In this document: piece after piece, positions 26,847-38,787 of the stretch | How positions within the stretch are numbered: the first letter of the stretch is position 1 | Layout of the letters: each line of letters opens with the position of its first letter | DNA from: Acidobacteriota bacterium | GTDB lineage: Bacteria > Acidobacteriota > UBA6911 > RPQK01 > JAJDTT01 | Length of the DNA stretch: 39,306 bases | Assembly: GCA_022827025.1 (NCBI GenBank) | Contig: JAJDTT010000302.1 | Span: 1-39,306, forward strand | Reading direction: 5' to 3' | Made by a program: the position numbers and the translations under genes | The notes under the pieces: model-generated | What the model was told of the DNA's origin: nothing | The model's input: only the letters and a program-made list of their open reading frames with translations | Databases searched by the model: none

Positions 26847-29318
26847 ATGTTCCCACCGAATTCGGCAATTGCGGCAGCCAGCGTATGGGTGATGGCCTGG
26901 CTCGGCCTGGCGGCGGCTCCGCCCGCCGCGCCGAATCCGCGGCAGGCGCCAAACCAAAGAACGAGCCCGCAAGACCATCAACCTCCCGTACTGAGCCGTT
27001 TGCCCGAGTTCTCCTTGACCGATCACCTCTCCCGGTCCTTTGGGACCCACCAGCTACTTGGCAAGGCATGGATCGCGGATTTGATTCGCACCCGCGACCC
27101 GCAGGCGGCGTCGCAAACCGCCGCGTTGGCGAAGCTCCAACGGGAGCTCAGGAGACGGCCGGGCTGGGCCGACATTCGTCTGGTTACCTTCACGGCCGAT
27201 CCGGAGCACGACTCGCCGGACGTTCTTCGGAAGTACGCAACCGCGGCCGGAGCCGACGGGGAGCAGTGGAGCCTCCTGACCGGTCCCCGAGAAGTACTGG
27301 AGCACGTGACTGCCGGGTTCGCCGGGCCGGCGCAGGACCACAGCGGGAAATGGATGCTGGTCGATCCCCAAGGGCATGTCCGCGGGTTTTACCATGGCAA
27401 CGCAACCGGCCAGAGAGAGGCCCTGAAAAGGGATGTCCTGACGACGCTGCAGGAACGCCTCCTGTGGCAGGAATTCCCGTGGCTGGAAGAACGCCGGCAG
27501 GCCCAACTTAAAGGCTCCGGCGGCCTACGAGCCTTCCATGACTTTTCGTTTGAGGACCGGGTCCGGGAGTCGGGCATCGCTTTTCGCAACCGGATCGTCG
27601 ACGATGCGGGAAGGTCCTTTATTTTCGCCCATTACGACCACGGGAACGGACTCGCCATTGCCGACGTCGATGGCGACGGGCGGCATGACATCTACTTCGT
27701 GAGCCAGGCCGGCGGCAATGAACTCTGGAGAAACCTGGGCGGCGGCAAGTTCGAGAACGTCACGGAGCGGGCAGGGGTCGGCGTCAGGGAGCGGATCGGC
27801 GTGACCGCGTCATTTGCCGATATCGACAATGACGGAGACGCGGACCTGTACGTCACCACCGTTCGCGGGGGCAACGTGTTGTTCGAGAACGACGGGAAGG
27901 GGGTCTTCAAGGACATCAGCGCCGAGTCGGGCGTCGGGTACACGGGCCATTCCTCGGCCGCGGTTTTCTTCGACTACGACCGCGACGGCCGGCTGGACCT
28001 CTTCCTGGTGAATGTGGGCATCTATACGACGGACGAAATCAGGACGGTCGTCCATGACTCCTTTACGGGAACCGATCACGCGACCTATACCTACTACCGT
28101 TCCACGCCGGACGCCTTCAACCGCCACCTGAATGCCGCGCTCTCGGAGTCCAGCATCCTCTACCGGAACCAGGGCGGAAACCGGTTCGTCGACGTCACGG
28201 AGCAGGCGGGTCTGAAGGATACGAGTTGGTCGGGGGACGCCAGTCCGCTCGATGCCAACAACGACGGATGGCCCGACCTCTATCTGGCCAACATGCAAGG
28301 ACACGACCAGTACTTCGAGAACGTCGAAGGCCGGCGATTCGTGAAGAAGAGCCGGCAACTGTTTCCCGCGACGCCGTGGGGAACCATGGGAATCAAGGTC
28401 TTCGACTTCGAGAACGACGGGCGCCTGGACCTCTATCTCACCGACATGCACACGGACATGTGGAAGCATCTCGATCCGTTCAGCGAGAAGGAAAAGATCC
28501 CCTTCCCCGAGGAGATCGCCGAGAAGCAGATGTTGGCCACCGACGGGAATCATGTCTGGGGAAACGCCTTCTTCCGCAACCAGGGAGACGGCGCCTTCAG
28601 GGAAATGTCGGATCAATTCAATGCCGAGAACTACTGGCCGTGGGGATTGAGTGTGGGGGACCTGAACGCCGACGGATTCGAAGACGCCTTCCTCACGTCC
28701 TGCATGAACTACGGCTATCGCTATGGCATCAACAGTCTGCTGCTGAATGACCACGGACGGAGATTCGTGGACAGTGAATTCATCTTGGGCGTGGAACCCA
28801 GGCGCGGCGGCCGGACCCTCATCCCCTGGTTCGAACTGGACGCGCTCGGCGCCGACAAGGACCACGAACTGGTCAAGAAGGTCCGGGCCCGGGGAGCCAG
28901 AGTCACCCGTGTCGTGGCCTGGGGCGCCATCGGATCTCGTTCATCGGTGATTTTCGACCTGGATGACGACGGGGACCTGGACATCGTGACCAACGATTTC
29001 AATTCCGAACCCATGGTCCTGGTCAGCGATCTGGCTGACCGCAAGCGGATTCGTTTCCTCAAAGTCAATCTGACCGGCACCCGGTCGAACCGCGACGGGC
29101 TCGGCGCCCGGGTCACGGTCCGGGCGGGTTCGGCCACCTACACCAAGGTGCAGGACGGCCAATCCGGATACCTCTCGCAGAGTCTCTATCCGCTCTACTT
29201 CGGGCTCGGCGAAGCCGGGCAGGTCGATCAGGTCGAGGTGCTCTGGCCGTCCGGAAAACAACAGGTGCTTGCGGGACCCATTGCAGCGGGCTCGAAATTG
29301 AATATCATCGAGCCGTAG
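26847..29318 (+). CDS. CRTAC1-type protein with degenerate SCO1-like N-terminal domain
   Basis: This 823-residue exported protein has three parts. Residues 1-25 are a signal peptide. Residues about 48-185 resemble SCO1/thioredoxin-like copper chaperones (LPEFSLTDHLSRSFGTHQL, RLVTFTADPEHDSPDVLRKY, WMLVDPQGHVRGFYHGN). The region that should hold the CxxxC copper ligands reads LIRTRDPQAASQ, without Cys, although a candidate His (H165) remains. Residues about 225-735 carry FG-GAP/VCBS propeller repeats with Ca-binding loops such as ADVDGDGRHDIYF and ADIDNDGDADLYV, and the end (about 735-820) is ASPIC/UnbV (VQDGQSGYLSQSLYPLYFGL). The TAG stop is the first base pairs of palindromic element copy 4. 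Confidence 0.88.
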   Translation: MFPPNSAIAAASVWVMAWLGLAAAPPAAPNPRQAPNQRTSPQDHQPPVLSRLPEFSLTDHLSRSFGTHQLLGKAWIADLIRTRDPQAASQTAALAKLQRELRRRPGWADIRLVTFTADPEHDSPDVLRKYATAAGADGEQWSLLTGPREVLEHVTAGFAGPAQDHSGKWMLVDPQGHVRGFYHGNATGQREALKRDVLTTLQERLLWQEFPWLEERRQAQLKGSGGLRAFHDFSFEDRVRESGIAFRNRIVDDAGRSFIFAHYDHGNGLAIADVDGDGRHDIYFVSQAGGNELWRNLGGGKFENVTERAGVGVRERIGVTASFADIDNDGDADLYVTTVRGGNVLFENDGKGVFKDISAESGVGYTGHSSAAVFFDYDRDGRLDLFLVNVGIYTTDEIRTVVHDSFTGTDHATYTYYRSTPDAFNRHLNAALSESSILYRNQGGNRFVDVTEQAGLKDTSWSGDASPLDANNDGWPDLYLANMQGHDQYFENVEGRRFVKKSRQLFPATPWGTMGIKVFDFENDGRLDLYLTDMHTDMWKHLDPFSEKEKIPFPEEIAEKQMLATDGNHVWGNAFFRNQGDGAFREMSDQFNAENYWPWGLSVGDLNADGFEDAFLTSCMNYGYRYGINSLLLNDHGRRFVDSEFILGVEPRRGGRTLIPWFELDALGADKDHELVKKVRARGARVTRVVAWGAIGSRSSVIFDLDDDGDLDIVTNDFNSEPMVLVSDLADRKRIRFLKVNLTGTRSNRDGLGARVTVRAGSATYTKVQDGQSGYLSQSLYPLYFGLGEAGQVDQVEVLWPSGKQQVLAGPIAAGSKLNIIEP

Positions 29319-30944: not shown

Positions 30945-32759
30945 CTATCGACGCTGCGGCGGCACGGAAAGCCGGGTCCCTCCGCCTTGAACCAACACTG
31001 AATACGCGTTGACCGGCACTTCTTTCCATTCTTCCGCCCGTCCGCCGGGCCAATAAACGCGCACGGCCTCGACTCGATCCGCGTACCCCAGCCCGGCCAG
31101 CACCCTGGGGTCATTGGCGGAGGCGTAGCTTCCGTCCGAGCGGACCCGGCGCCACAGGGTTCGGCCTTCGGACAGCACGACCTCGACTCTGGCGCCCAAC
31201 ATGTCTTGGCCGGAGGGCCGGCCGACAAGCCTCAATCCCACCCAATGTTTGTCACTTCCGGCCTGATTGGTCAGCAGCCGCGCCCGGCCGTTGTTGTTGA
31301 AAACCAGAAGATCCGTGTCGCCGTCGTTGTCCACATCTCCGAACGCCGCTCCGCGGCTCACTTCCGACAACTTGAATACGGCCCCCGCGGCACCGGTCAC
31401 TTCCTGAAATCTTCCCTTCCCCAGATTCCTGAAGAGTTGATTGGTCTGATGCAACGGATAGGGGTCCTTGGCCCGTGCCAGCGCCTCGACGTTCTTCACA
31501 TGTCCATTGACGGCCAATAGGTCCAACCGGCCATCGTTGTCGTAATCCAGGAACGCGGTTCCGAATCCGGTGAAAGGAATGCTGGGAAGGGCCAGCCCGC
31601 TCGGATAGGAGGCATCCTTGAACGACGCCTTCCCCTGGTTGACATAGAGAGTGTTCTTCTCGTTCAGCGACATGTGGGTCATGAAGAGATCTTCGTCCCC
31701 GTCATTGTCATAGTCGCCGGCGTCAACCCCCATGCTGGACTCGGAAAACCCCTCCCCGCTGACGGCGCATCCGGCCAGCAGGGCCTCGTTCCGGAAACTG
31801 CCGTCTCGTTGATTGATCCAGAGGTGATTGGGCCGCTTGTCATTGGCGACATAAATGTCGATCCAGCCATCCCCGTTGAAGTCGGCCGTGCTCACTCCCA
31901 ATGCGCCATTGGATTCCCGGGCAATTCCTGCCTCGTGGGAGACATCTTCGAAGGTCCCGTCGCCCCGATTGCGGAACAGGCTTTCCGGCAACGGTTCGTA
32001 TTGGCTGGGGTCGCAATACTCAAGGGCGCTGCCGCCGGCGGCGTCAGAGAAAGAGAAGCAGCGCTTGTGGTTCGAGAAGCTGAAGTCCACGTAGTTGCCC
32101 ACGTAAAGGTCCAGTCTGCCATCCCGGTCGTAGTCCAGGAACGCCGCGCTGACACTCCAGCGCAGATCATTCGTGCCGGTCGTGCCGGTCACATCGGTAA
32201 AGGTCCCATCCCCGTTGTTCCGAAACATCTGGTTGGGCCCGAAATTGGTCACGTAGAGGTCGATCCAGCCATCATTGTCGAAGTCCCCCGTGGCCACGCC
32301 CATCCCGTAGCCCGGCGACCTGATCCCGCTTTCCTCCGTCACGTCGGTGAAGCGCAGTCGTCGCCCGCCGCCTTCGTCGGTCTGCAGGTCGTTTCGGTAA
32401 AGCCGATCGATCAGCGGTTTGGAATCGGAAACGGGAAAGACCGCGTCGGAAAGGGTCTTTCCCGGACCCAGCATGCGGCCCTGGATCAGGTAGAGGTCGA
32501 GGTCGCCGTCGTTGTCATAATCGAACATGGCCCCACCGGGACCCATCATTTCGCACAGGTAGCGTTCCCCCGACATGCCGTTGAAGTGGACGAAGTCGAT
32601 CCCGGCGTCCGTCGTGGCATCCCGGAAGATCCCGGTGGTTGCCGAAATTCCTGCTTGCCGGCCCGGACCGACGGCCTGCTGCGTTCCCTGGGAGAGGCAG
32701 ACGGTGAGTAGAGCCCAGATGACCAGGAGGATCCCGGAACTCCCTCGGTGAGAGCACAT
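30945..32759 (-). CDS. CRTAC1-type FG-GAP/ASPIC-UnbV protein
   Basis: This 604-residue exported protein has a signal peptide (about 8-27, SGILLVIWALLTVCLSQG) and FG-GAP/VCBS repeats from about 43 to 490. Calcium-binding loops are plain, for example FDYDNDGDLDLYLI (80-93), DFDNDGWIDLYVTN and DYDNDGDEDLFMTH. The C-terminal ASPIC/UnbV domain (about 495-590) includes WVGLRLVGRPSGQDMLGARV, SDGSYASANDPRVLAGLGYA and VRVYWPGG. Such proteins are secreted beta-propellers of uncertain function, often near TPR proteins and TonB receptors. There is no SCO1-like domain here, unlike the protein at 26847. Convergent with the TPR gene, with 65 bases between them. Confidence 0.88.
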   Translation of the reverse strand: MCSHRGSSGILLVIWALLTVCLSQGTQQAVGPGRQAGISATTGIFRDATTDAGIDFVHFNGMSGERYLCEMMGPGGAMFDYDNDGDLDLYLIQGRMLGPGKTLSDAVFPVSDSKPLIDRLYRNDLQTDEGGGRRLRFTDVTEESGIRSPGYGMGVATGDFDNDGWIDLYVTNFGPNQMFRNNGDGTFTDVTGTTGTNDLRWSVSAAFLDYDRDGRLDLYVGNYVDFSFSNHKRCFSFSDAAGGSALEYCDPSQYEPLPESLFRNRGDGTFEDVSHEAGIARESNGALGVSTADFNGDGWIDIYVANDKRPNHLWINQRDGSFRNEALLAGCAVSGEGFSESSMGVDAGDYDNDGDEDLFMTHMSLNEKNTLYVNQGKASFKDASYPSGLALPSIPFTGFGTAFLDYDNDGRLDLLAVNGHVKNVEALARAKDPYPLHQTNQLFRNLGKGRFQEVTGAAGAVFKLSEVSRGAAFGDVDNDGDTDLLVFNNNGRARLLTNQAGSDKHWVGLRLVGRPSGQDMLGARVEVVLSEGRTLWRRVRSDGSYASANDPRVLAGLGYADRVEAVRVYWPGGRAEEWKEVPVNAYSVLVQGGGTRLSVPPQRR

Positions 32760-32996: not shown

Positions 32997-35027
32997 TCAA
33001 TGGGGAGAAGTCAGTAGAAGTTCCCGCGCCAGCTTCAGGTTGCGCTCGGCGTCGGCGTAGCTGGGGTCGATCTCCAGGGCGCGCCGGTATTCGACGACGG
33101 CCCGGCTGAAATTCCCTGTGGCGAGAAGCGCATTGCCCAGATTGTTGCGGGCCTCCGCAAAGTCCGGATCGATCCTCACGGCACGCTCGAAGTGGTACAG
33201 GGCCTGGGCCAGGTCTTCCTGCTGAGCGAAGGCGATGCCCAGGTTGTTGTGCGCCCTGGCAAACTCCGGCTGGATCCGGATGGCTCGCTGGAGGCTGGCA
33301 ATGGCCTGGCCGATGCGGCCCGCGGCCAACAGGGCTCCGCCCAGATTGTAGTGGGCCTCCAGCAGATCCGGCTTGATCTTCAGGGCCCGGCCATAGTGGT
33401 CGATGGCCTCCCCGGCATGGCCCTGCTGGATCAGGGCGGTCGCCAGATTGCTGTGGCTCTCCGCGTACCCGGGACGGATTTCGAGCGCCCGGCGATAGTG
33501 GCGGATGGCCTCCTCAACCATTCCCCGCGCCTGAAGCACCTGACCCAGGTGATCGTGGGTCCGGGCATCTTCGGGATCGATCTCCAAGGCGTGCCGGTAG
33601 CCGGCAATGAACCGGTCACGCTCCTTGACCCGGTAGTCGGTCTGCAGGGTCAGCAGGTCATTCCTGTCTTGCGTCGATACCTGGAGCCACAGGTCACCCA
33701 TCTCATCGCTGGAATTAGGACCGTAAACCACCCGCTGAGGCGGGTTGTGGGGGTTGCGGACATTCTCCGGCGAGTTGTCGTAACTGTACTGCATGGTCAG
33801 CCGGGTTCCTCGCGGCAGAGAAATCGGCTCACGGTAGACGTAGTCGTCCTGCCAATTGAAGTCCCACTCCTTGATGTAGACGAGCCAGCGCCTGCTGCCG
33901 TCGGGAAGTTGCGCAAAGGCGCGCATCTGTTTGCCCAGATAGTGGGCATGCGGGTAAACACCCAGAAGCTGCACGGCCACCGGCAGCACATAACTGTCTT
34001 CGATCCAGTACTCCTTCTCTCCAGGAGCAATGTCGATGGTCTGCGACCCCAGCCCGATGATAAAGGAGGTCTTGGCCGGGGCCTCGTCACTGAAATAGAG
34101 CCCCACGCTGGGCTGAATCCGCTCCGGCTTGCCCGAGGGCATCATGTGCAGTTCCAACACCAGGTCGGCGCCCTTTTTCAGCCGCCAGGTCCTGCCGTCT
34201 TCACCCTCTGCCGGAACCTTGCCCGGCGTCCACCCCAGAAAATGACCGTCGGGCGCGCGGGCAAACTCGGTGGACCTCATGCCTTCGAAACCCGGAACGG
34301 GATCATCCTCATCCAATTGCCGGCAACGGCGGGTCGTGTCGACCAGTCCTACCGCATGGTGGACGACCCTCGGGTTGCCGGGCCGAAACTCCAAGGCCCG
34401 CACATAACGGTCCGACTTCAGGGCGGCCGGTATGACGAACATCCGGAAGATGTCCGGTCCATCGGCCGACAGGGTGTAGGGCCGGGGCATGGTGAGGACC
34501 AGGTCCGGTTCCCCCAGGTGCCATCCGGCCGGCCATTCCGGCGCCTCGGGGGCATCTGCCGGATTCCCTTCGATGGCCCCCTCGGCCACCCACTGCGCCA
34601 ACATGCCGATCTGGTCCATATTCAGGCGGCGCTCCCCGATGAACTCCCCGTAACCCGGCTCGGGCTGCCAGGGAGGCATGTAACGACTCTGCGTGACGGT
34701 CACGATCTGCCGGGCCCGGCGGTTGACGTCGGCGTAGCCGAGCAAGTTGAACGGGCCCGCACCCCCGGGCCGGTGACAGGTTGCGCAGTTTTCGAACACC
34801 AGGGGCGCGATGTCCCGGTTGAAGGTCAAGGTGCCGGCCGGCCGGGGCAAATAAGTAGCCGGTGCTCCTTCAATACTTGTTTCCGGGGGCGGCGGGGATG
34901 TCGGGGTAGAGTCCGGTTGTGTGCACCCGATCCAGGTCGAACTCAGCCATGCCCCCATCAAGAGTGGAAGGGCAACGTCCGCCTTGAGTCTTGTCCGGAA
35001 TGGACGTTCCGACTTGTAAAGCTCCAT
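32997..35027 (-). CDS. Cytochrome c / PHM-type copper monooxygenase / TPR fusion lipoprotein
   Basis: This 676-residue protein appears lipidated at C35 (hydrophobic ALPLLMGAWLSSTWIGC). A small cytochrome c-like module holds CATCH (C81, C84, H85) with the probable sixth ligand Met in SRYMPPW. Residues about 165-450 resemble the two-domain copper ascorbate-dependent monooxygenase fold of peptidylglycine hydroxylating enzymes. All candidate copper ligands are there: H223/H224 in VVHHAVG and H294 in LELHMMPSG (CuH-type), H360/H362 in YPHAHYLG and M443 in SSDEMG (CuM-type), with spacings close to PHM. Residues 470-670 are about six TPR units. It could hydroxylate an exported substrate using electrons from its own haem. 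Adjacent CRTAC1 and Oar genes suggest a shared envelope function. Confidence 0.85.
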   Translation of the reverse strand: MELYKSERPFRTRLKADVALPLLMGAWLSSTWIGCTQPDSTPTSPPPPETSIEGAPATYLPRPAGTLTFNRDIAPLVFENCATCHRPGGAGPFNLLGYADVNRRARQIVTVTQSRYMPPWQPEPGYGEFIGERRLNMDQIGMLAQWVAEGAIEGNPADAPEAPEWPAGWHLGEPDLVLTMPRPYTLSADGPDIFRMFVIPAALKSDRYVRALEFRPGNPRVVHHAVGLVDTTRRCRQLDEDDPVPGFEGMRSTEFARAPDGHFLGWTPGKVPAEGEDGRTWRLKKGADLVLELHMMPSGKPERIQPSVGLYFSDEAPAKTSFIIGLGSQTIDIAPGEKEYWIEDSYVLPVAVQLLGVYPHAHYLGKQMRAFAQLPDGSRRWLVYIKEWDFNWQDDYVYREPISLPRGTRLTMQYSYDNSPENVRNPHNPPQRVVYGPNSSDEMGDLWLQVSTQDRNDLLTLQTDYRVKERDRFIAGYRHALEIDPEDARTHDHLGQVLQARGMVEEAIRHYRRALEIRPGYAESHSNLATALIQQGHAGEAIDHYGRALKIKPDLLEAHYNLGGALLAAGRIGQAIASLQRAIRIQPEFARAHNNLGIAFAQQEDLAQALYHFERAVRIDPDFAEARNNLGNALLATGNFSRAVVEYRRALEIDPSYADAERNLKLARELLLTSPH

Positions 35028-35275: not shown

Positions 35276-35287
35276 ACTTGTACAAGT
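35276..35287. promoter_or_regulatory. Palindrome upstream of the Oar-type receptor gene
   Basis: ACTTGTACAAGT is a perfect 12-base palindrome, 45 bases before the receptor start. A TTGACT at 35239-35244 lies upstream and could be a -35 element. The site could bind a regulator, but palindromes of this length occur by chance at modest frequency. Confidence 0.35.
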
Positions 35288-35331
35288 ATGTTTCCGCTCA
35301 CCCATATTCCGTCCCTAAGGAGGACGCGACA

Positions 35332-38300
35332 ATGCAGTTTTCTTTCTCTTCCGTCAGGATCATTCTACCTCTGATTCTGCTGCTGGTATCCCTGCCCGTA
35401 GCGGCCCAGGACAATCTGGGCAGGATTGCCGGGGCCGTCGCCGACGAGACGGGGGCGCGGATTCCGGGCGTCGACGTGACGGCCCGCGATGAAGCGACCG
35501 GCCTCGAAACCGCTACCGTCAGCAGCGAGTCGGGAGACTACTCTTTTCCAGCCGTGGTGATCGGTTCCTACACGATCTCCGCGAGCCTGCCCGGATTCAA
35601 GACGGTCGAACAAGTGGGCGTACGGGTCGTTTCCGGCTTGGCAGTGACGCTCGACATCACCTTGCCCATAGGCGAGGTGGTCGACACCGTGACTGTGGAA
35701 AGTCAGGCGCTGGCGGTGGACAACCAATCCTCCAGCGCAGGCCTCACCCGGGTGGTCGAGGAGATCGAGGAACTGCCGATGGCGGTCAACCAGGGGGCCC
35801 GGCACAGTCTGTCCTTCACTCGAACTTTGCCCGGTTTCTCCTACGATCCCTACGGCAAGGAGACCGACACCACCGACCGCGGCTACATCCACGGCGTTGT
35901 GGGGGTCATGAGCACCAACATCGACGGGATCTACTCCAGCCCCGCCAACAACTTCGGCATGAGAGAGGATTCGGGGCTGATTCCCGAAGTCATCAGCGAG
36001 TTTCGAACCGTGGCCAACGTCAACGCCGAGCACGGATGGAACATGGGCTCGAGCGTGGAGATGGTCATGAAGTCGGGAACCAACGAGTTCCACGGCAGCC
36101 TTTTCGAGTATTTTCGAAACGACGTCCTGGACGCCCGCCAGTGGTTTGCCGCAGATGTCAATCCCCACCGGCAGAACGAGTTTGGAGCCGTCGTCGGCGG
36201 GCGGATCATCAAAGACAGGCACTTCTTCCTGGCCAGCTATACCGGCTACCGGGAGCGACGGACCGCCGGCGGCCAGACCTCGACCGTCCCCACAGGGTTG
36301 ATGCGACGTGGCGATTTCAGCGAGTTCCTGGGATCCCAGATTGGGACCGATGTCCTGGGCAGGCCGATCTTGCAGGGTCAGATCTATGATCCGGCCACTA
36401 CTCGGCCAGACGGACATGGAGGATTCATTCGCGATCCATTCCCGGGCAACGTCATTCCCAGCAACCGGATCAGCTCCATTTCGGCCGCTTTTCAGGATGG
36501 CGTCCCTATGCCCAACCGGCCCGGCACGGTGAACAACCATGTCGGCCCGCTGGACAAGGGCGAGCAGGACATCGACAAGCTGACCTTGAAGACGGACCAC
36601 AAGTTTACCGACAACTACAAGTTTTCTTTCGGGATGGACTGGCACCGTAAGGATGTCGTCTGGCCCGGGAACGCCGGCTATGACCAGTTGATCAACACCA
36701 CCCATTTGACGCTGGGCAAACAGTTCCGCTATCGGTTCTCGAATTACTACACCCTGCGGCCCAACGTGCTCTTCAGTTTGCGCTTGGCCGGCCAGGGAGT
36801 GCCTCGGGAGATCGGCAAGCCGGGCAACACCCACGGCCGGGATTCGGGGCTCACAGGTTTGGTGACGCCCGATACCCCTTTCACCAACATTCAGGGCGCC
36901 TCCGGATTTGGATTCCTCTTCCTGAATCTGTTCATGCCCGAATTCACGTACCCGGTCTATACGGATCTGACCTGGGTCAAGGGGAGCCACAATTACAAGT
37001 TCGGCATCCAGGGCAGATACGCCGCCGTGGGACGGAACGTCCAGATTTTCACCAACGGCAATTTCACCTTCAGCGATATCACGACAGGATTGGCCGGCGG
37101 CAATCAGATGGACGCGGGCGGCAACGTCTCCGCGTTCCCCGATATCGCGCTGACCGGCCGCGGCTGGGCCAGCTACCTCTTGGGAGAAGTGAACACCGCC
37201 TTCATGAGGCCGTCTGACAACAAGAGAGTCAACAATCGCGTCTATGCCATCTATTTGCAGGACACCTGGCGCGCCACCCGCCAACTGACCGTCAACTACG
37301 GGCTTCGATACAACTGGTGGACCCCCTTCGGCGAAACCTATCACCGGATGGGCTACTTCAGTCCCGACATTCCGAACGCCGCGGCGGACGGGCGAATGGG
37401 CGCCTTGACTTTCAACGGCGAGGGACCGGGGCGAAACGGCCGAACCAGGGCCTACGATCGGGATTGGGGCGCCTGGTCGCCCCGTCTGGGCCTGGCCTAC
37501 GCCCTGGACGACAAGACCGTACTGCGAGCCTATGCGGGTATCACCTACGCCAATCCGGGCGCCGAGCTGCAGGGCGGCGGGAATGTAGCGGCCCTGGGGT
37601 GGGCTGCAGAGCCGTCGTACAGTTCGATTGACGGCGGAGTGACCCCGGCCTTCAACTGGAACGACGGGTTTCCGGCCGAAGGACTCCAGATCGTCGGCAG
37701 TCTTCCCAACCTCGACCCGACCCTGGCCAACGGGACCGCCGTGCACTGGATTCATCCCCAGGACAACAAGTGGACCACCAGCAATAACTTCGGATTCGGG
37801 ATTGAACGGGAGGTGGGGTGGAATCTCCTGCTCAAGGGGGACTACGTCGGCAAGCTGGGCCGGCACTACCGGCTGAATTGGGAACGCAACGAGGTGCCCC
37901 CCGGGATCTTCAGGCTGGGACCGGTCATCGATCAACCGATATCGTCCCCCGATGGCATGGCGACCGGCGTCCCCGTACCCTACATGGGGTTCACTGGAAG
38001 TGTCCGGCAGGCGTCGCGTCCCTATCCCCAGTACACGGGAGTCAATCTGAGAGGCGCCCACGGAGGGATTACCTCCTACCATGCCGCCAACATCAGCGCT
38101 CAGAAGCGTTTCGGAGGGGGACTCAGTTTTCTGCTGGCGTATACCCTTTCCAAGAACATCGCCACTGGTAGAGGCTATGGTGTATTCGGTGCGCCCGGAG
38201 TGTCGCATGAGGGGTATGGAGGGGGCCGAGTCCGTTTCATTACACCTTACGATCGCACCCACAACATGGCCTTGACCTGGACCTGGCAGTTGCCCTTCGG

Positions 38301-38787
38301 CCGGGGTCAGCGATGGGGAGCTGACGCCTCCACCCTGTTCAACCATTTCATTGGGAGATGGCGGGTCATGGGTTGGCACAACTACATGTCGGGAGACCCC
38401 ATCGACCTGGGGGCACGAGTCAATCGCACTGGACGAGGCCTGGGAGGCGGGGTCAGCCACGGGGGATACGATCCCAACGGATCGCAGAAAAATACGCTCA
38501 ACGTGGACGCCTTTGCGCCTGAAAACAGGGTGATTGCCTTCGCCGACACCCGCCAGTTGCCGGATATTCGCAAGTTCGGATACTCGACCGAGAACCTGTC
38601 GATTCTGAAAGACTTTCTGGTCACGGAGGGCGTGCGTCTGGAATTTGGGACAGAGATTTTCAATATCTTCAACCGGGCGCAATTCTATAGTCCGCGCTAT
38701 TCCCTCGCCGATCCAAGCGCCTTTGGACGATACAGAAACACGGCGCTGGCTCGAATCATTCAGTTCCGGCTAAGGATCGCCTGGTAA
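35332..38787 (+). CDS. Oar-type TonB-dependent receptor with N-terminal carboxypeptidase regulatory-like domain
   Basis: This 1151-residue outer-membrane protein starts at ATG 35332 behind a strong AAGGAGG site. It has a signal peptide (IILPLILLLVSLPVAAQ), a carboxypeptidase regulatory-like Ig-fold domain (about 28-107, GRIAGAVADETGARIPGVDV and VIGSYTISASLPGFKTVEQV), a plug-like region (about 110-240) and a large beta barrel. The chain ends in ARIIQFRLRIAW, with the terminal aromatic residue usual for outer-membrane barrels. Oar-type receptors in Acidobacteria number in the tens per genome and import or export large compounds, with no SusD partner needed. No SusD-like gene is next to it. It is divergent from the copper monooxygenase fusion. 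Confidence 0.9.
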   Translation: MQFSFSSVRIILPLILLLVSLPVAAQDNLGRIAGAVADETGARIPGVDVTARDEATGLETATVSSESGDYSFPAVVIGSYTISASLPGFKTVEQVGVRVVSGLAVTLDITLPIGEVVDTVTVESQALAVDNQSSSAGLTRVVEEIEELPMAVNQGARHSLSFTRTLPGFSYDPYGKETDTTDRGYIHGVVGVMSTNIDGIYSSPANNFGMREDSGLIPEVISEFRTVANVNAEHGWNMGSSVEMVMKSGTNEFHGSLFEYFRNDVLDARQWFAADVNPHRQNEFGAVVGGRIIKDRHFFLASYTGYRERRTAGGQTSTVPTGLMRRGDFSEFLGSQIGTDVLGRPILQGQIYDPATTRPDGHGGFIRDPFPGNVIPSNRISSISAAFQDGVPMPNRPGTVNNHVGPLDKGEQDIDKLTLKTDHKFTDNYKFSFGMDWHRKDVVWPGNAGYDQLINTTHLTLGKQFRYRFSNYYTLRPNVLFSLRLAGQGVPREIGKPGNTHGRDSGLTGLVTPDTPFTNIQGASGFGFLFLNLFMPEFTYPVYTDLTWVKGSHNYKFGIQGRYAAVGRNVQIFTNGNFTFSDITTGLAGGNQMDAGGNVSAFPDIALTGRGWASYLLGEVNTAFMRPSDNKRVNNRVYAIYLQDTWRATRQLTVNYGLRYNWWTPFGETYHRMGYFSPDIPNAAADGRMGALTFNGEGPGRNGRTRAYDRDWGAWSPRLGLAYALDDKTVLRAYAGITYANPGAELQGGGNVAALGWAAEPSYSSIDGGVTPAFNWNDGFPAEGLQIVGSLPNLDPTLANGTAVHWIHPQDNKWTTSNNFGFGIEREVGWNLLLKGDYVGKLGRHYRLNWERNEVPPGIFRLGPVIDQPISSPDGMATGVPVPYMGFTGSVRQASRPYPQYTGVNLRGAHGGITSYHAANISAQKRFGGGLSFLLAYTLSKNIATGRGYGVFGAPGVSHEGYGGGRVRFITPYDRTHNMALTWTWQLPFGRGQRWGADASTLFNHFIGRWRVMGWHNYMSGDPIDLGARVNRTGRGLGGGVSHGGYDPNGSQKNTLNVDAFAPENRVIAFADTRQLPDIRKFGYSTENLSILKDFLVTEGVRLEFGTEIFNIFNRAQFYSPRYSLADPSAFGRYRNTALARIIQFRLRIAW

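Follow-up and report, generated by a model that had tools for sequence, protein, structure and literature searches.

The gene at positions 32,997 to 35,027 of the window, by which we mean the whole stretch of 39,306 nucleotides of Acidobacteriota DNA analysed here, encodes a protein that is likely, judging from its sequence and predicted structure, to be an exported dicopper monooxygenase of the PHM/DBH superfamily, probably situated on the outer surface or in the periplasm and equipped with its own electron donor. In the textbook enzymes PHM and DBH, it has long been a puzzle how two coppers that lie far apart are supplied with electrons and activate O2; animals use this type of domain to finish hormones and to make noradrenaline. 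The match of the protein family to PHM is far beyond chance. Its fold and active site are already known from the PHM/DBH superfamily; what sets it apart from the animal PHM and DBH enzymes is the cytochrome fusion, the partnership with a redoxin and the TPR tail.

Sequence sets and alignments

Genome contigs were scanned with two peptide patterns, which yielded 283 confirmed relatives. The best 80 of these 283, together with two paralogues from the window's own genome, made up the 82 rows used for comparison. The patterns contain the motif R-Y-M-P-P-W and do not contain the copper ligands. Alignment A3 was built without L017, L019, L069, L075, L076 and L082, which were near-duplicates or truncated, and alignment A4 comprised 51 of 83 proteins, chosen for their long tails. 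Long N-terminal extensions of L021, L029, L032, L049, L050, L057, L059 and L085 were excluded, being mostly out-of-frame and due to the choice of the first start codon. The phylogenetic tree leaves out L069, which is cut by its contig.

A second set was formed from the 30 best profile matches of the phylum (one per genome) and 20 hand-picked weaker matches; a truncated frame (the second of L108) and a 76-aa piece (the second of L144) were left out. The two surveys overlap, since some genomes, e.g. those of L016 and L147, are present in both.

Organisation of the protein

An earlier note, made from the letters of this DNA, had described the gene as coding for a lipoprotein in which a cytochrome c, a PHM-type copper monooxygenase and TPR repeats are combined. 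The coordinates, strand and length of the reading frame were confirmed, and all residues named there (C35, C81, C84, H85, H223, H224, H294, H360, H362 and M443) stand at the numbers given. The features of the gene, all on the minus strand, are as follows.

32997..35027, minus: gene for the cytochrome c / PHM-like / TPR protein, 676 aa (ORF)
34923..35027, minus: export signal, residues 1-35, ending in a possible lipobox W-I-G-C35 (sequence; helix 20-32 in the model)
34578..34832, minus: c-type cytochrome domain, residues 66-150 (PF13442, E 1.6e-5)
34773..34787, minus: haem-binding C81-A-T-C84-H85 (82 of 82 relatives)
34677..34679, minus: M117, candidate distal haem ligand in R-Y-M-P-P-W (82 of 82 relatives, a count favoured by selection)
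33663..34514, minus: PHM/DBH-like two-domain module, residues 172-455 (profile search, predicted structures, alignment)
34356..34361, minus: H223-H224, aligned with PHM H107-H108 (CuH; 82 of 82 rows)
34146..34148, minus: H294, aligned with PHM H172 (CuH; 82 of 82 rows)
33942..33950, minus: H360-A-H362, aligned with PHM H242-T-H244 (CuM; 82 of 82 rows each)
33849..33851, minus: Q393, at the alignment position of PHM Q272 (82 of 82 rows)
33699..33701, minus: M443 in S-S-D-E-M, aligned with PHM M314 (CuM; 81 of 82 rows)
33009..33632, minus: TPR tail, residues 466-673 (Pfam TPR_11, E 2.5e-50; helical pairs in the model)

The description as a lipoprotein is less firm: C35 is in place, but the box W-I-G-C carries an atypical Trp at position -3. 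By a loose rule, a lipobox was seen in 28 of 83 proteins. The search of three other genomes of the genus revealed full-length orthologues with 84-86% identity. Rfam and tRNA scans of the window returned no match, and neither did a plasmid search.

Fold of the copper module

A profile built from 77 family heads was searched against 177,635 distinct PDB sequences, and PHM was the sole match below E 0.3, with a best value of 2.7e-6. The family profile was needed for this result, as the copper domain searched as a single sequence gave no match in the PDB. When only the C-terminal half was used as a profile, the PDB search gave no related sequence, not even PHM, and the equivalence of M443 and PHM M314 therefore rests on the alignments and on the ranges of the structure matches.

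Structures were predicted with AlphaFold2 using the family alignments, both for the whole protein (pLDDT 90.3, pTM 0.84) and for the head only (pLDDT 93.3, pTM 0.89). With the head model, Foldseek placed PHM first (E 2.2e-13), followed by DBH (5.8e-12) and, as the next fold, a match at 2.4e-5. VIA-align superimposed the head on PHM with Z 21.5 over 260 residues at 3.1 A and on DBH with Z 20.0, while the first fold outside PHM/DBH was PNGase F, with Z 7.8. The two-domain sandwich to be expected if the copper module is of PHM type was found in both AlphaFold2 models, which match PHM with Z 21.5-21.7 over 260-267 residues.

The existing domain models see this family poorly. Cu2_monoox_C (PF03712) scored 13.7 bits with the window protein, below its cut-off of 23, and the Pfam cut-off for PF03712 and PF01082 is a detection threshold and not a property of the enzyme. 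The same model matched 58 of the 77 heads at E<=0.1 (best 1e-5), and Cu2_monooxygen matched 13. A PF03712 search of the window's own genome gave no match despite the three family copies there; since the model is too distant and misses three real copies, the absence of PF03712 by name means little. Among NCBIfam models, none recognises the window head. A predicted PHM/DBH-type dicopper fold with six ligands is supported by the sequence comparisons and the models together.

Copper ligands and active-site residues

The six copper ligands proposed earlier could all be aligned one-to-one with PHM H107, H108, H172, H242, H244 and M314, and their spacing is close to that of PHM: 70 residues between positions 224 and 294, 66 between 294 and 360 and 81 between 362 and 443, as compared with 64, 70 and 70 in rat PHM. 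A survey of homologues for loss of these residues did not refute the proposal, as the five histidines are kept in all 82 rows and M443 in 81, the sole row without it being L069, whose contig ends before that position. Eight histidines are found at residues 160-455, of which only the five predicted ligands are invariant; the non-ligand histidines vary (H170 in 3, H262 in 35 and H427 in 13 of 82 rows). Likewise, M443 is the most conserved methionine of the copper module, the next being M412 (66/82).

The glutamine Q393, at the position of PHM Q272, is invariant. PHM Q170 corresponds to position 292, as read from the alignment of the profile with the PDB sequence, and this position is Glu in the window protein and Gln in 56 of 83 rows. 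In PHM, Q170 and Q272 are described as belonging, together with H108 and the substrate, to a network of waters (PMC6123673).

The copper module of the window protein has a single cysteine, C235, common to 2 of 82 relatives. PHM has disulfides that brace its two domains, and with one cysteine only none of them can be present here. The position of PHM R240, which we take to be the basic anchor of the peptide carboxylate, is occupied by Y358, and the seven commonest residues of the family there are Y, T, L, Q, A, F and I (83 rows); owing to gaps close to this site, the column may be off by one or two.

Cytochrome c domain

The CATCH haem site placed by the earlier note ahead of the copper module was borne out by the comparison, with C81, C84 and H85 kept in 82 of 82 rows. 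PF13442 scored 25.5 bits with the window protein, below the cut-off of 27, and matched 66 of 77 family heads at E<=0.1. The cytochrome part is helical in both AlphaFold2 models. The PHM and TPR parts took up the lists returned by VIA and Foldseek, which never reached the cytochrome part, so that their silence on it is no sign of a missing known fold.

From the sequence we infer M117 as the candidate distal haem ligand. Its conservation in all relatives was favoured by selection, since R-Y-M-P-P-W is part of the search patterns; M117 is also present in copies picked by profile search instead of by pattern.

TPR tail, clades and distribution

That TPR repeats follow the copper module, as had been read from the sequence, was corroborated by the TPR_11 match and by the helical pairs in the model. 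About six C-terminal TPRs are present in the window protein, and its tail matches the TPR domain of OGT with Z 25.8. The repeat fold of the tail is also that of TPR lipoproteins and periplasmic scaffolds (PilW/PilF, MamA and YrrB; Z 21-23), from which the family differs in that its TPR is appended to an enzyme head and that one of two main clades lacks it.

A quick maximum-likelihood tree was made of 82 heads. In it, 54 rows, all long-tailed, are split from the remaining 28 by a branch whose SH-aLRT support is full. TPR was found in 48 of the 51 long-tailed proteins scanned. The three long tails of the other clade consist of a redoxin (L079) or of different domains without visible TPR (L084 and L087). 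The confinement of TPR to one of the two main clades points at a module of that clade and not at a requirement of the enzyme.

Of 297 genomes sampled from the phylum of the window, 68 gave family matches, with up to 10 copies per genome; the window's genome has three. Within the order of the window 7 of 18 genomes gave a match, one of them (G299) weak and restricted to the cytochrome part, and the presence of the family in the order is therefore patchy. The titles of the 80 loci (best 80 of 283) name at least six phyla: Acidobacteriota, Verrucomicrobiota, Planctomycetota, Gemmatimonadota, Latescibacterota and Myxococcota. Among the bearers of the gene are cultivable bacteria such as Granulicella sp. 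S190 (L077) and Paracidobacterium acidisoli (L072). It should be added that bins labelled as Bifidobacterium breve and Bordetella parapertussis (L053 and L067) carry family members as well. L067 groups tightly with an Acidobacteriota sequence, and the labels of both bins are probably wrong.

Copper-less relatives

In the second set, drawn from the phylum, the six copper ligands are intact in 55 of 58 complete copper domains. Twenty-eight of these 58 domains come from the 20 hand-picked places with weaker matches, and 25 of the 28 are intact. The exceptions are L139 (frame 5680, minus), L134 (frame 2959, plus) and L140 (frame 3099, plus), in which four or five copper ligands are gone and the C-C-H-M of the haem site is retained. 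Each copper-less copy shares its stretch of 5-9 kb with an intact copy, and it is possible that the copper-less copies are partner subunits of a heteromer. These three relatives indicate that the PHM-like fold can persist without the copper ligands. A separate observation concerns L144, where the cytochrome and copper parts lie in different frames, either through a frameshift or as two separate genes.

Genomic neighbourhood and partners

Two genes flank the window gene directly.

30945..32759, minus: FG-GAP/UnbV-ASPIC (CRTAC1-like) protein, 604 aa, next gene on the same strand (conserved next door in the genus)
35278..38787, plus: divergent TonB-dependent/Oar-like outer-membrane receptor, 1169 aa (PF25183, E 4e-167)

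The receptor recurs at this position in L155 and L156/L017 with 94-95% identity. This identity across the genus, against 83-92% for its neighbours, points to an unusually strong constraint on the receptor. In the genomes G037 and G297 the cluster runs in the order CRTAC1-like gene, paralogue PAR2, TonB-dependent receptor (opposite strand), orthologue of the window gene, CRTAC1-like gene, TPR protein and Sco-CRTAC1-like gene. In the genome of the window, PAR2 and the receptor are on different contigs (at the end of C34 and near the end of C237, respectively) and are probably separated by a contig break. A further gene of the window, at 26847-29318 on the plus strand, codes for a CRTAC1-like protein of 823 aa whose N-terminal domain is Sco-like (PF02630, E 9e-10). 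That domain has no cysteine, and the protein is thus probably no copper chaperone. The UnbV/ASPIC (CRTAC1-type) domain has 39 matches in the 5.3-Mb genome of the window, a large paralogous expansion.

The commonest partner seen among the best 80 of 283 loci was a redoxin of AhpC-TSA/Redoxin type, present in the flank of at least 41 of the 80; this number is a lower bound, as contig ends cut the flanks. The redoxin gene never lies on the opposite strand, and in all of these loci but L035 it touches or is fused to that of the family member; the fusions, in front in L060 and behind in L079, are both counted among the 41. The two cysteines of the redoxin are invariant (41/41). For one redoxin there is a weak match to SCO1/SenC (E 0.002). 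Beside the window gene there is no redoxin. Each of the four genomes of the genus has one strong redoxin match elsewhere in the genome (E 3e-66 to 2e-61), and in G037 the proteins encoded around it appear by eye to be FG-GAP/CRTAC1-like.

Proposed function and alternatives

We propose that the c haem takes single electrons from a respiratory or periplasmic pool and would hand them one by one to CuH and CuM, replacing ascorbate. On the grounds of sequence, a role of the haem domain as replacement for ascorbate is plausible, and with a c haem site ahead of the copper module in all 82 rows the simplest reading would be that electrons enter through the haem. Bound to CuM, O2 would be activated with the substrate present, as in PHM, and a C-H bond of the substrate held between the two domains would be hydroxylated, again as in PHM. 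The TPR tail may serve as an optional docking module of one clade, and in many relatives the two-cysteine redoxin probably loads or maintains copper or thiols. For PHM, one reducing equivalent from ascorbate is reported to be used by each copper, and the distance between the coppers is given as 11 A (PMC6123673).

Alternatively, the protein might be a copper/haem redox protein and not a monooxygenase, its centres working as those of an oxidase, a peroxidase or a reductase of small molecules, to which the cytochrome gives electrons or from which it accepts them. Hydroxylases do not usually have a c haem built in, and the redoxin linked in at least 41 of the best 80 loci is peroxiredoxin-like; furthermore, H2O2 is reported to be able to bypass a requirement in PHM (PMC6123673). 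However, the full sets of CuH and CuM ligands are kept together with the equivalent of Q272, as expected of two one-electron centres across a substrate cleft, and we consider this reading unlikely.

The docking of CRTAC1-like proteins by the TPR tail, with these proteins being modified by the monooxygenase, had been suggested in part by the earlier note. Within the genus, where the CRTAC1-like gene next door is conserved, it directly follows on the same strand, a second one is close to the PAR2 paralogue, and the genus redoxin gene adjoins FG-GAP/CRTAC1-like genes (by eye). As a family trait, the docking was not upheld: a CRTAC1-like gene is near only 5 of the best 80 of 283 loci, two of the five being in the window's genus, against a TPR tail in 54 of 82 tree rows, and the window's genome has as many as 39 UnbV/ASPIC matches. 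The docking is accordingly judged improbable.

Storage, sensing or trafficking of copper by a protein with a borrowed PHM fold, in which the haem reports or sets the copper redox state, appears highly unlikely. The numbers of up to 10 copies per genome, the Sco-like domain in the window's cluster and the one redoxin with weak SCO1/SenC likeness are in line with it, but the Sco-like part of the window has no cysteine, the PHM-like spacing of the ligands gives no hint of storage, and the glutamine of the substrate network is invariant. A true peptidylglycine hydroxylase making alpha-hydroxyglycine peptides in bacteria is extremely improbable, although the best structural matches are to PHM ahead of DBH, as Tyr358 or variable residues at the R240 position and the lack of a PAL lyase domain in the window protein and in the neighbouring genes scanned make glycine-extended peptides an unlikely substrate.

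Relation to known enzymes and significance

Among known enzymes, the protein stands closest to rat PHM (EC 1.14.17.3; PDB 1phm, 3mic and 1sdw), with which it shares the two-domain sandwich (Z about 21 over ~260 residues), the six copper ligands in order and register, the equivalent of Q272 and S-S-D-E-M around the CuM methionine. It differs from PHM in the low identity of about 16%, the fused c-type cytochrome and TPR, the one cysteine of the copper domain, the Tyr at the position of R240 and the absence of a PAL lyase domain among the domains found. DBH (PDB 4zel) has the same fold (Z 20.0) and carries an extra N-terminal DOMON domain ahead of the copper module, whereas the extra domain here is a c-type cytochrome, and nothing points to a catecholamine as substrate. 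PNGase F-type amidases share the sandwich topology with Z 7-8, far weaker than the match to PHM and DBH, and PNGase F, a hydrolase, works without copper.

A description of a cytochrome c-PHM fusion was not found in the literature searched, which included few subscription papers, and labels for it may exist in databases. The proteins apparently constitute a large and widespread bacterial family that has so far been undescribed. We tentatively suggest, as one possible outcome, that they form a large class of bacterial dicopper monooxygenases of PHM type that are self-sufficient, a covalently attached c-type cytochrome taking the place of ascorbate. Such enzymes would be serviced by a two-cysteine redoxin of their own, would in some cases pair with a copper-less tandem paralogue and would hydroxylate an extracellular or periplasmic substrate, and the class may be near the bacterial stock of animal PHM and DBH.

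If this is true, the built-in haem donor would allow the entry of electrons into a PHM-type enzyme to be followed optically, a new set of O2-dependent C-H hydroxylations would be at hand, and the family would bear on the origin of the animal enzymes of neuropeptide and catecholamine synthesis. Widely found in Acidobacteriota, Verrucomicrobiota and Planctomycetota, often with several copies per genome, the family may matter in soils and sediments through its reaction.
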